Part shown: piece by piece, positions 1,232 through 5,062 of the stretch
Position numbering within the stretch: position 1 is the stretch's first letter
How the letters are laid out: every line of letters begins with the position of its first letter
Source of the DNA: a bacterium
GTDB lineage: Bacteria > Actinomycetota > Aquicultoria > Aquicultorales > Aquicultoraceae
Length of the DNA: 32,736 bases
Reading direction: 5' to 3'
Assembly: GCA_902810715.1 (NCBI GenBank)
Contig: CADDYS010000017.1
Coordinates: forward strand, 1-32,736
The notes under the pieces: model-generated
What the model was told of the DNA's origin: nothing
The model's database searches: none
Seen by the model: the letters and a program-made list of their open reading frames with translations, nothing else
Program-made: the position numbers and the translations under genes

Positions 1232-1939
1232 TTGGCTTTAGTTATAGCTAAGGAATTATCTAAGTATTATGGCCATGATGAGGAAACACAGGTTCACGCG
1301 CTTGAGGGTGTGAGCTTTGAAATAGAGCAGGGTGAGTATATTGCGGTTATGGGACCATCGGGTAGCGGCAAGTCCACGCTTCTTGCCATCCTTGGCGCCA
1401 TGAGCCCGCCAAGCTTGGGCAGCCTTACGGTAGACGAGATCGATGTCTACGGCCTCTCCCAGGAGAAAAGGGCCGATTTTAGAAGGGAGTACCTGGGATT
1501 TGTTTTCCAGCAGCTCCAACTTATCCCGTATCTTACCGCGCTTGAAAACGTCATGCTGCCGCTGGTCATCACCGATCACAGGGATAAAAAAGAGCTTGCG
1601 GAGCAGACATTGGACCGGGTAGGTCTGGGAAATAAACTAAACCGGCTTCCGTCTGAAATGTCCGGCGGTGAGCAGAGCAGGGTGGCGATCGCCCGTGCGG
1701 TGGTCAACAATCCCCCGGTACTTCTTGCAGACGAGCCGGTCGGGAGTCTAGACAGCAAGACCGGCAGAGAGGTTCTTGAGCTGTTCAAGAAACTTCATTG
1801 CGAGGGGCAGACGATTATTATGGTGACGCACAACCCGGAGTCGATAAGAGATGCCGACCGCATCATCCAGCTAAGAGACGGCAAAATTGTGGATGATGTA
1901 AAGACGAAGGTCGGAGAAAGTGCCGCTCTTAGGCTTTAA
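1232..1939 (+). CDS. ABC transporter ATP-binding protein (MacB/LolD type)
   Basis: This is the ATPase partner of the preceding permease. All motifs are visible: Walker A GPSGSGKST (about residues 41-49), Q-loop FVFQQ (about 91-95), signature MSGGEQSR (about 142-149), Walker B VLLADEP followed by the D-loop GSLD, and H-loop MVTHN (about 198-202). Length (235 aa) is that of MacB/LolD ATPases. The start is a TTG at 1232 with GAAAGGG at 1216-1222, about 9 nt away; an in-frame GTG further up hits a stop at once. The 3' end overlaps the convergent csoR gene by 11 bp, so no terminator separates them. Confidence 0.93.
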   Translation: MALVIAKELSKYYGHDEETQVHALEGVSFEIEQGEYIAVMGPSGSGKSTLLAILGAMSPPSLGSLTVDEIDVYGLSQEKRADFRREYLGFVFQQLQLIPYLTALENVMLPLVITDHRDKKELAEQTLDRVGLGNKLNRLPSEMSGGEQSRVAIARAVVNNPPVLLADEPVGSLDSKTGREVLELFKKLHCEGQTIIMVTHNPESIRDADRIIQLRDGKIVDDVKTKVGESAALRL

Positions 1940-2204
1940 CAAAGCGCTCGATTACGTCTATTAACTCCTGGATGCTGGCATCCTCGCCCTCGTTTGAAAC
2001 GGCGTTTCTTATGCAGCCCTTAATGTGGTCGTCAAGGATGATAAAGCCCACCCTTTGTGTTGCGCCCAGGACGGAGGATACCTGTACCAGGATGTCTACG
2101 CAGTACTTATCCTCCTTAACCATACGCTGGATGCCCCGGAGCTGGCCTTCAATGCGCTTTAACCTTGATAAAATTTTCTCTTTGTCTGCTGAGTACGGCA
2201 TCAT
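1929..2204 (-). CDS. csoR: copper-sensing transcriptional repressor CsoR
   Basis: A DUF156/CsoR-family four-helix repressor of 91 aa. It has the Cu(I) ligand triad at family spacing: Cys35, His60 and Cys64 (C-x24-H-x3-C). The N-terminal motif KILSRLKRIEGQLRGI is the classic family signature. Apo-CsoR binds GC-rich operators, and Cu(I) binding releases DNA. Two adjacent Met codons start the frame, with GAGGTGAG upstream. It is divergent from copA and shares a roughly 400-bp control region containing two G-tract operator-like sites, so it very likely represses both itself and copA. The ligand pattern fits copper rather than the nickel or formaldehyde (RcnR/FrmR) members. Confidence 0.93.
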   Translation of the reverse strand: MMPYSADKEKILSRLKRIEGQLRGIQRMVKEDKYCVDILVQVSSVLGATQRVGFIILDDHIKGCIRNAVSNEGEDASIQELIDVIERFVKA

Positions 2205-2261: not shown

Positions 2262-2317
2262 TGTTCACAGAAAGTTGTAAACTATTAGGTGGGGTGATTT
2301 CAAAATCTGGATGATGG

Positions 2318-2348
2318 TATAATAATGCCTATAGGGGGGAGGGGTACA
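2318..2348 (+). promoter_or_regulatory. copA promoter -10 and CsoR operator-like G-tract
   Basis: TATAAT at 2318-2323 has only a weak -35 (TGATTT at 2295-2300). It is followed at 2328-2348 by CCTATAGGGGGGAGGGGTA, close to the CsoR operator consensus core (CCTATAGGGG plus GGGGTA). Transcription from here would give a copA leader of roughly 280 nt. Confidence 0.55.
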
Positions 2349-2431
2349 GCGTCAGACGTGAAATGACGTTCCACTTTTACAGGCTACTCAGTAGTAGATG
2401 CTTATCGATTAAGGGGAGGATGACGCTGTAC
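2344..2431 (+). other. structured leader element upstream of copA
   Basis: A perfect 11-bp inverted repeat, GTACAGCGTCA (2344-2354) and TGACGCTGTAC (2421-2431), would form a closing helix. Inside are a CTACT/AGTAG hairpin with a 4-nt loop (2384-2397) and a possible helix GUGAA/UUC-bulge-CAC (2358-2374). The outline resembles a three-way junction RNA. It lies between the copA promoter and start codon. I do not recognise it as a named riboswitch. Confidence 0.4.
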
Positions 2432-2432
2432 A

Positions 2433-2557
2433 GAGCAATGGAACAATAGAACAATCGAGCAATAGACATAGAAGATGGAAAATGGAAAATAAATTAGTCA
2501 TATATTATGGAAGCCTGTTCCATTGCGGTCTATTGTTCAATTGCTCTATTATCGATC
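2433..2557. repeat. stuttered-word inverted repeat
   Basis: The left arm (2433-2467) is built from the repeated words GCAATGGAACAATAGAACAA and GAGCAATAG. Then comes GATGGAAAATGGAAAAT. The right arm (2517-2557) carries the complement of the left (GGTCTATTGTTCAATTGCTC). The arms can pair over most of their length with a few mismatches. The element fills the remaining leader between the structured segment and the copA start. Confidence 0.7.
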
Positions 2558-2608
2558 TAGTGCCTAATATATAGGTCAAATAATGTACGATGGAGTGCTA
2601 GTATTACG

Positions 2609-5062
2609 ATGACCAAGAAATATATTTTACCGGTCACAGGCATGACTTGAGCCTCGTGTGTGCGCCGCGTGGAAACGGCGCTCGGAGCAGCTCAGGATAT
2701 AAAAAACGTAAATGTGAGTCTGGCAAGCCAGAAAGCAGTCATCGAGGTTGAGGAAGGCAGCAACATAAGTGTTTCCGACCTGGTAAAGGCTGTTGAGGAC
2801 TCGGGTTACCACGTGCCGGTTGAGGAGATCACAATCTCAATCGGCGGGATGACATGCGCTTCCTGTGTGAGAAGAGTAGAGCAGGCACTTCTTAAAGTAA
2901 ACGGCGTCGTCTCGGCTAACGTAAATTTGGCGACCGAGAAGGGAGCTGTAAAATATATATCCGAGATGGCAAGCCCGAGGGACTTAAAGCAGGCGGTAAT
3001 AAAGGCGGGCTACGAAGTAAGGGAGCCTGAAGGTGAAAGCGCAGGCGCCCAGGTTAAAAGCGACAGGTCGCGAGACGAAGTCGGCCAACTAAAGAGACGT
3101 CTTATCATAGCCGCAGCGTTGACGGTTATCGTAATGGTCGGAAGCATGCACGAGCTTATCCCCGCGCTTATGCTCATCCCGGATAAGATCCGCTATATTA
3201 TACTGCTTGCGCTGACCACCCCGGTTCAGTTCTGGGCGGGCTGGCGGTTCTACCGTGGGGCTTATCTCACCGCAAAACACGGGAGCACCGACATGAACAC
3301 ACTGGTTGCCGTGGGCACATCGGTTGCGTATCTATATAGTATCGCGGTCACTTTCTTCCCCGGTTTTTTTAAGGCGCAGGGGATTACGCCGGCCGTCTAC
3401 TACGATACGGCGGCAGTCATCATCACCTTGATTCTTTTTGGGAGATATCTTGAAGCCAAGGCCAAAGGGCGTGCCTCAGATGCGATAAAGAAACTCCTGG
3501 GTCTTCAGCCCAGGATGGGTCGCGTGATAAGAGACGGCGAAGAGCTGGATATCCCAATTGAGGATATCCGGGCAGGGGATGTAGTCCTGGTTCGCCCCGG
3601 TGAGAAGATACCGGTTGACGGTGTCGTGGTCGAGGGATATTCATCAGTTGACGAGTCGATGATTACCGGCGAGAGTATGCCGGTCGAGAAGCACGGCGGC
3701 GATGAGATAATCGGTGCGACTATTAATAAAACCGGTTCGTTTAAGTTTAGGGCGACCAAAGTGGGCAGCGAGACCGCGCTTGCGCAGATCATAAAACTTG
3801 TTGAGGAAGCGCAGGGCTCAAAAGCCCCGATCCAGAGACTTGCCGATGTTGTGGCGAGCTACTTCGTCCCAACGGTTATATCAATCGCCGTTTTAACTTT
3901 CATCATCTGGATGATATTTGGGCCGAAGCCGGCCTTTACAGTTGCGCTTCTGAATTTTATCGCGGTACTTATTATTGCGTGTCCGTGCTCGCTGGGCCTG
4001 GCGACGCCGACTGCAATTATGGTTGGCACGGGCCAAGGTGCGCAAAACGGAATCTTAATAAGAGACGCGCAGGCTTTGGAGAACGCGCATAAGATAAACA
4101 CAATTGTCTTGGATAAGACGGGCACGCTCACGCAGGGCAAGCCGGCGGTGACCGACATCGTCGAAAGCAACGGCTTTACCGAGGCTGATGTGTTGCGGTT
4201 TGCCGCATCAGCCGAGCGCGGGTCTGAACATCCTCTGGGCGAGGCTATTATAGCAAGGGCCAAGGAGATGAACCTTGTGCTGGTTGAGCCGAAGAATTTT
4301 GAGTCCTTCACCGGGCGCGGCATCGGAGCGGATATCGATGGGCATGTTGTTATAATGGGTAACTCACGTTTGATGGAAGAGCGCGGCATTGTGCTCGACG
4401 GCACGCTTGAGAGGGCGGTTGCCCTATCCGAAGAAGGAAAGACCCCTATGCTTGTTGCGGTTGACTCAAAAATCGCCGGGGTTGTTGCGGTCGCCGATAC
4501 CCTAAAGCCGAACTCGGCGATGGCGGTCAAAAGGCTTCAAGAGATGGGTCTCGAGGTCGTCATGTTGACCGGAGACAACGAGCGAACCGCTGCGGCGATT
4601 GCGAGGGAGGCCGGTGTAGACCGTGTGCTTGCCGAGGTGCTCCCGGCGGACAAGGCGGTTGAGGTAAAGCGGTTGCAGCAGGAGGGTAAGGTAGTTGCGA
4701 TGGTCGGAGACGGCGTGAACGATGCGCCTGCCTTGGCGCAGGCCGATATCGGCATCTCAATCGGTACCGGTACCGATGTCGCAATCGAGGCCTCAGATAT
4801 TACGCTGGTGGGCGGCGACCTGCAGGGCCTGGTAACATCAATTGCCTTGAGTCGCAAGACGTTAAAGACAATTTACCAGAACCTTTTCTGGGCGTTTATC
4901 TACAACACGATTTTGATACCGGTGGCCGCGGGCGCGCTTTACCCGATCTGGCATATCCAACTAAACCCGATGCTGGCCGCACTGGCGATGGCGTTTAGCT
5001 CGGTCTCGGTTGTATCAAACTCACTTAGGCTGAAGCGGTTTAAGGCACCGCAAGTAAGCTAG
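2609..5062 (+). CDS. copA: copper-exporting P1B-type ATPase CopA, candidate selenoprotein (in-frame TGA at codon 14)
   Basis: This Cu(I) efflux ATPase has two N-terminal HMA domains (about residues 5-70 and 75-140) and eight membrane helices. Key motifs are TGES (about 352), the metal-site CPC (about 457), the phosphorylation site DKTGT (about 501), SEHPLGEA, and hinge GDGVNDAP (about 700). The second HMA has an intact GMTCASC. The first reads GMT-TGA-ASC: the TGA at 2648-2650 replaces the first cysteine codon, and the rest of that domain is intact. I place the start at ATG 2609 because it restores the normal HMA beginning [17 protein letters not shown] lies at 2592-2595, a rather long 13 nt away. 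The alternative GTG at 2660 would remove the metal site and has no ribosome-binding site. Either the TGA is read as selenocysteine (817 aa) or it is a recent nonsense mutation or base error. The stop overlaps convergent abiEii by 4 bp. Confidence 0.9.
2648..2694 (+). promoter_or_regulatory. SECIS-like stem-loop beginning at the copA TGA
   Basis: The TGA itself pairs in UGAGC/GCUCA (2648-2652 with 2690-2694). Then CUC/GAG (2653-2655 with 2685-2687) and, above an internal loop, a perfect GCGCCG/CGGCGC helix (2662-2667 with 2676-2681) follow. The 8-nt apical loop is CGUGGAAA, with G second. The loop starts 17 nt after the TGA, inside the range described for bacterial SECIS elements. The two arginines in this stem are coded CGC CGC, while the same residues in the second HMA domain are AGA AGA and give no such hairpin. 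Confidence 0.55.

Follow-up and report, generated by a model that had tools for sequence, protein, structure and literature searches.

The copA leader in the window (the whole stretch of DNA analysed, 32,736 nucleotides of contig CADDYS010000017.1) raises the question of whether a perfectly closed, folded 88-nt segment within it is a metal-responsive RNA or a folded mobile repeat, the 2 readings offered in a preliminary description made from the sequence alone. The genes and sites of the region are collected in Table 1. As that description had it, the segment follows a CsoR-operator-like promoter: next to the promoter-like hexamer pair, from a consensus scan that found 5 sites against 1.7 expected, there is a ATAGGGGG-type box common to relatives. 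We infer that CsoR binds this box, the last bases of which overlap the left end of the element described below. Our analysis indicates that the 88-nt segment is almost certainly the left part of a miniature inverted-repeat transposable element (MITE) derived from an insertion sequence of the IS630 family (Tc1/mariner superfamily).

Table 1. Features of the csoR-copA region, in window positions.
Feature	Position	Strand	Basis or remark
csoR, metal-sensitive repressor, divergent from copA	1929..2204	-	PF02583, 101 bits
Promoter-like hexamers TTCAAA-16-AATAAT of copA	2299..2326	+	consensus scan 9/12; weak alone
CsoR-operator-like box CCTATAGGGGGGAGGGGTA	2327..2346	+	ATAGGGGG..GGTA core recurs upstream of relatives' copA
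Complete MITE, Tc1/mariner/IS630 type, 255 nt (almost certain assignment)	2344..2598	+	copies and ends, sister-copy empty sites, parent-type right end
Left terminal inverted repeat GTACAGCGTCA	2344..2354	+	usual preceding TA lost in window copy
Internal inverted copy of left end, closing the 88-nt hairpin	2421..2431	-	inverted-repeat match, aligned copies
Second AT-rich inverted repeat, B	2432..2547	+	repeat family, also found without the 88-nt part
Right terminal inverted repeat TGTACGATGGAGTGC	2584..2598	-	TA next at 2599-2600; similar end after the L274 DDE_3 transposase
copA, read through in-frame TGA	2609..5062	+	PF00122, PF00702, two HMA stretches (TGA as residue)
TGA codon and bacterial SECIS-like hairpin	2648..2681	+	stem 2662-2667 / 2676-2681

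The geometry first reported for the segment proved correct. GTACAGCGTCA and its perfect inverted repeat TGACGCTGTAC, spaced by 66 nt, form the 11-bp closing helix, further hairpins are enclosed by it in the predicted fold, and the inverted repeat that follows the segment is real (arms at 2432-2450 and 2529-2547, 95% complementary). As RNA the 88 nt have a minimum free energy of -27.2 kcal/mol (z -2.75, with 2 of 200 shuffles as good), and folding was also found for the DNA (z -4.23) and for the opposite strand (z -3.10). The 11-bp helix alone proves little because roughly 0.8 inverted repeats of this length with a loop under ~100 nt are expected by chance per 32.7 kb (an arithmetic estimate); the segment is real because it recurs elsewhere in the genome. 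A search of the genome from which the window comes (the own genome, 2.43 Mb in 153 contigs) with positions 2300-2640 returned 7 places including the query, and the 88 nt alone gave 12 rows at E values up to 10. We built a covariance model, R1, from 13 copies (alignment A1), which match it by construction, and 13 distinct places in the own genome score at least 52 bits with it, besides one 31-nt place at 26 bits and opposite-strand self-matches. The copies at these 13 places are dispersed and lack a transposase gene, the arrangement by which MITEs are recognised, and the genes that adjoin the 88-nt copies are of unrelated kinds. The preliminary description had held that many copies at unrelated loci would speak for a repeat and against a metal-sensing RNA, and the copies indeed lie at about a dozen unrelated loci. 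When 36 genomes (own and relatives) were searched with R1 at E ≤ 0.1, 6 matched (own, G001, G002, G003, G005, and G017); the weak match in G017 (E 0.065) looks like chance.

Alignment of the copies with their flanks placed the 88-nt segment in the left part of a 255-nt element. Its ends are imperfect terminal inverted repeats (GTACAGCGTCACA on the left, TGTGATGGAGTAC on the right) that agree with each other only in part (GTACAGCGTCACA versus GTACTCCATCACA). In the general layout, (C)TA is followed by GTACAGCGTCACA, an inverted copy of the left end comes after 88-94 nt, and then come B and a distal part that runs to TGTGATGGAGTAN and a TA. The 88-nt hairpin owes its existence to this internal inverted copy of the left end. 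Of 13 left ends listed, 11 have a TA before them; that of the window copy does not. In several G001 copies (L214, L216, and L219) a bare 27-nt palindrome, GTACAGCGTCACAAAGTGACGCTGTAC, replaces the long hairpin. L219 is orthologous to L029 of the own genome, with the same upstream flank but the bare palindrome, and L211 of G001 is likewise orthologous to own L025. Because L219 and L029 occupy the same site, the hairpin interior can go while the element stays. A minimal copy of approximately 45 bp was seen in G003 (L253), in which TA dinucleotides enclose a left palindrome and, with nothing in between, the right end.

The B repeat, an AT-rich inverted repeat, was also found without the 88-nt part at 19 further loci of the own genome (L033-L051). 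By ARAGORN, 11 of the 19 hold tRNA genes, which B adjoins or separates, as against 0 of the 11 composite loci (L022-L032). The B arms, compared over window positions 2432-2547, L022-L032, and L199-L219, read GAATAG/CTATTC in the own genome, GATTAG/CTAATC in G001, and CAATAG/CTATTG in the window; the differences look matched on both sides, as if the hairpin itself had been kept.

The flanks of 6 own-genome copies were searched in the sister genomes G001 and G002, and the junctions were read except those of C25 in G001 and C43 in G002. At C12, the own genome reads GGCTA, element, TAGATGTC, and G001 has the empty site GGCTAGATGTC. C33 (TTCTA, element, TAAGGTGAACG) is empty in both G001 (TTCTAAGATGGTGAACG) and G002 (TTCTAGGATGTGAGCG), as is C35 (ATGTA, element, TAGTTT; ATGTAGGCAGAC in G001 and ATATAGATAAAA in G002). 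C13 is empty in G002 (GGCTTAAGGGAGG) and keeps a decayed right part in G001; a decayed right end stands at C12 in G002 and a decayed left part at C43 in G001, and no recognisable element was found at the C25 junction in G002. Empty sites thus hold one TA, whereas two surround the element in the sister copies, and this difference is the target duplication that IS630/Tc1/mariner elements make. At copA itself the duplication is not visible because the left TA of the window copy is lost. Movement would have been by cut-and-paste into TA. In 6 of 14 loci (L024, L026, L028, L029, L030, and L018), the upstream reading frame ends exactly at the left end of the element, and these 6 stop-codon insertions all have the same orientation. 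The first base of the element is G, which after the TA of a stop codon gives TAG again, and entry at such loci would thus have restored the codon. This single orientation, together with the hairpin-rich, intergenic character of the copies, would also suit a REP/BIME-like palindrome or an IS200/IS605-type single-strand element. IS200/IS605 elements are not known to make a TA target duplication, however, and the duplication seen against the empty sites, as well as the right end shared with a DDE_3 transposase gene, leaves a repeat of either kind very improbable.

That transposase came from a DDE_3 (PF13358) search of 12 genomes, which gave 3 matches over the cut-off, in G003, in G014, and in the own genome, the last being an 84-aa fragment only, with different surroundings. 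The G003 protein (locus L274, 102 bits) has its stop codon inside TTGATGAGTGATGGAGTAC and the TA after it (the frame ends in GTCAATTGATGAGTGATGGAGTAC and then TAG), one mismatch from the common right end of the element; its N-terminus is truncated and no left end was seen. Relatives of this transposase at E ≤ 1e-20 were found in 10 of 197 genomes; one of these relatives, the transposase L284 of G189, has TGTGATGGTGTAC followed by TA at its end, again with no left end seen. The best plasmid relatives of the G003 protein are ~60% identical to it and annotated as IS630 or ISPna1 transposases; the plasmid relatives L293 and L294 have TA-flanked ends GTGTCGCGTCATGA that lie 1179 bp apart, and the outline GT-N4-CGTCA is common to these ends and those of the element. 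The end pattern occurs at 40 sites in 12 genomes, and no complete autonomous element with both matching ends was found; none of the 30 sites inspected as loci had a transposase between facing ends, and a search of the own genome for an autonomous element found none. A 634-bp pair of facing ends in G003 (L241), considered as a cargo-carrying element, was reread as what are probably 2 decayed copies flanking a gene, which from its translation we take to be flavin-reductase-like. On the short copies, a transposase would have acted in trans. Altogether, the inverted-repeat ends, the TA sites, the empty sites with one TA, and the DDE_3 gene with the same terminal sequence identify the element with near certainty as a MITE. 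The earlier suggestion of a folded mobile repeat is thus borne out by the copies at unrelated loci, the TA duplication with its empty sites, and an IS630-type transposase that shares the right end.

The other suggestion, a metal-responsive leader RNA acting on copA as a riboswitch or attenuator alongside CsoR, draws on the position between the CsoR-like operator and copA and on a fold better than that of most shuffles, for the 88 nt and for the 255-nt element (z -3.57) alike. Against this stand the copies next to unrelated genes and the distribution of the element among csoR-copA loci of the family, which were readable in ten genomes (G000-G004 and G006-G010): 2 of the 10 carry it (the own locus and a diverged one in G002) and 8 are without it. 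The R1 match at the G002 copA leader is weak (21.7 bits), and the window element aligned locally with this leader scores 22, not above a shuffle maximum of 27. Two sister copies score 64 and 69, well above the 35 and 28 reached by the best of 300 shuffles each, and the right end of the element before copA aligns with the G002 leader. The G001 copA leader is without most of the element, and the copA insertion is either old, with loss in G001, or the result of 2 separate events. The preliminary description had also called for covariation among homologous leaders; covariation was read in A1, the rows of which are repeat copies and not copA orthologues. There, 0 of the 11 pairs of the closing helix changed on both sides, and among all 22 pairs 4 inner-helix pairs did so, each in one sequence; RNAalifold on the 13 copies gave 16 pairs with a covariation term of -0.06. 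Binding sites of a transposase would give just such near-invariant ends. In the window, Rfam returned 0 matches at the gathering score and only chance-level ones at E up to 10, and no terminator-like site was found. A metal-sensing RNA was therefore rejected on its copies at unrelated loci, its absence from 8 of the 10 family copA leaders, and the lack of covariation in the closing helix, and we hold it to be most improbable. A conserved metal sensor is not supported, and the element is not a copA-specific RNA.

By inserting between the CsoR-type operator and the start codon, the MITE would have come to make up most of the copA 5′ leader, and it is probably transcribed as such; its hairpins may incidentally affect copA mRNA. 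It may further be proposed that an ordinary MITE was taken over as a working leader, in which hairpins alter mRNA stability or translation and GGAG is the ribosome-binding site, a reading that adds to the MITE explanation and does not replace it. This would fit a leader that is mostly element: in both the own genome and G002, no SD-like stretch is closer to the ATG than the GGAG of the right end. In several copies the next gene begins shortly after the right end, and transcribed MITE hairpins are reviewed as regulatory in PMC2229807. However, the 13 nt between GGAG and the copA ATG (2609) is a long distance, and in G001, where most of the element is absent, copA is preceded by an AAGGA of its own, so we regard this takeover as unlikely. 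A broader version, which we consider quite doubtful, is that the MITE family settles between operon genes through the TA of stop codons, rebuilds TAG, and offers a GGAG ribosome-binding site, so that insertion is nearly harmless, and that the copA copy became a leader that sets CopA output.

In the coding sequence behind this leader, an in-frame TGA (2648-2650) stands where the first metal-binding domain of CopA would have its first Cys (GMT-U-ASC). All 10 family csoR-copA loci share the TGA, and it was seen in none of the named loci outside the family, by a motif screen that returned no match whatever for many loci. In the own sequence it is followed by a 6-bp stem with the loop CGTGGAAA; GTGGAAACGGC is invariant in the ten family loci, and the corresponding stretch of the second HMA domain varies. 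The own genome has a tRNA-Sec (76 bits, also called as tRNA-SeC by ARAGORN), and just upstream of it a frame that its sequence suggests is SelB-like. CopA is thus probably a selenoprotein, judging from these sequence features, and because of the conserved TGA its first metal-binding domain is missed in automatic gene calling. PMC13188914, PMC9312934, and PMC2398784 already count UxxC cation-transporting ATPases among the selenoproteins of bacteria, so this is a further occurrence and not a new kind. A literature search for Aquicultor together with selenocysteine found no paper in the library searched.

A perfect helix in the long leader of a metal gene can therefore mimic a riboswitch and yet be a transposon relic, which closes a tempting candidate: the mobile element is of an ordinary kind, and its place is unusual. 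In genome scans, a copy search and an empty-site check should precede claims of structured RNA.

Known elements offer close parallels. RUP, the repeat unit of pneumococcus, presumably mobilised by IS630-Spn1, is described in PMC2229807 as short and non-autonomous, with ends matching an IS630-family IS, a TA target, and many intergenic copies, as is the element studied here. Unlike RUP, the present element belongs to relatives of Candidatus Aquicultor (Actinomycetota), differs in end sequence, and in its 255 nt contains the left end once more internally, together with a second hairpin repeat; a complete partner IS was not found for it. With Correia/NEMIS and ERIC, likened here by their description in the same review, it shares boundaries formed by terminal inverted repeats, TA termini, and probably transcribed hairpins that may act on neighbouring mRNA, an effect reported for NEMIS and ERIC RNAs near other genes. 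ISY100 and the IS630 family (Tc1/mariner) resemble it in insertion at TA with duplication of the TA, as stated for ISY100 in PMC2170065, and in a DDE_3 relative with the same right end, whereas the window copy is a short derivative without a transposase.
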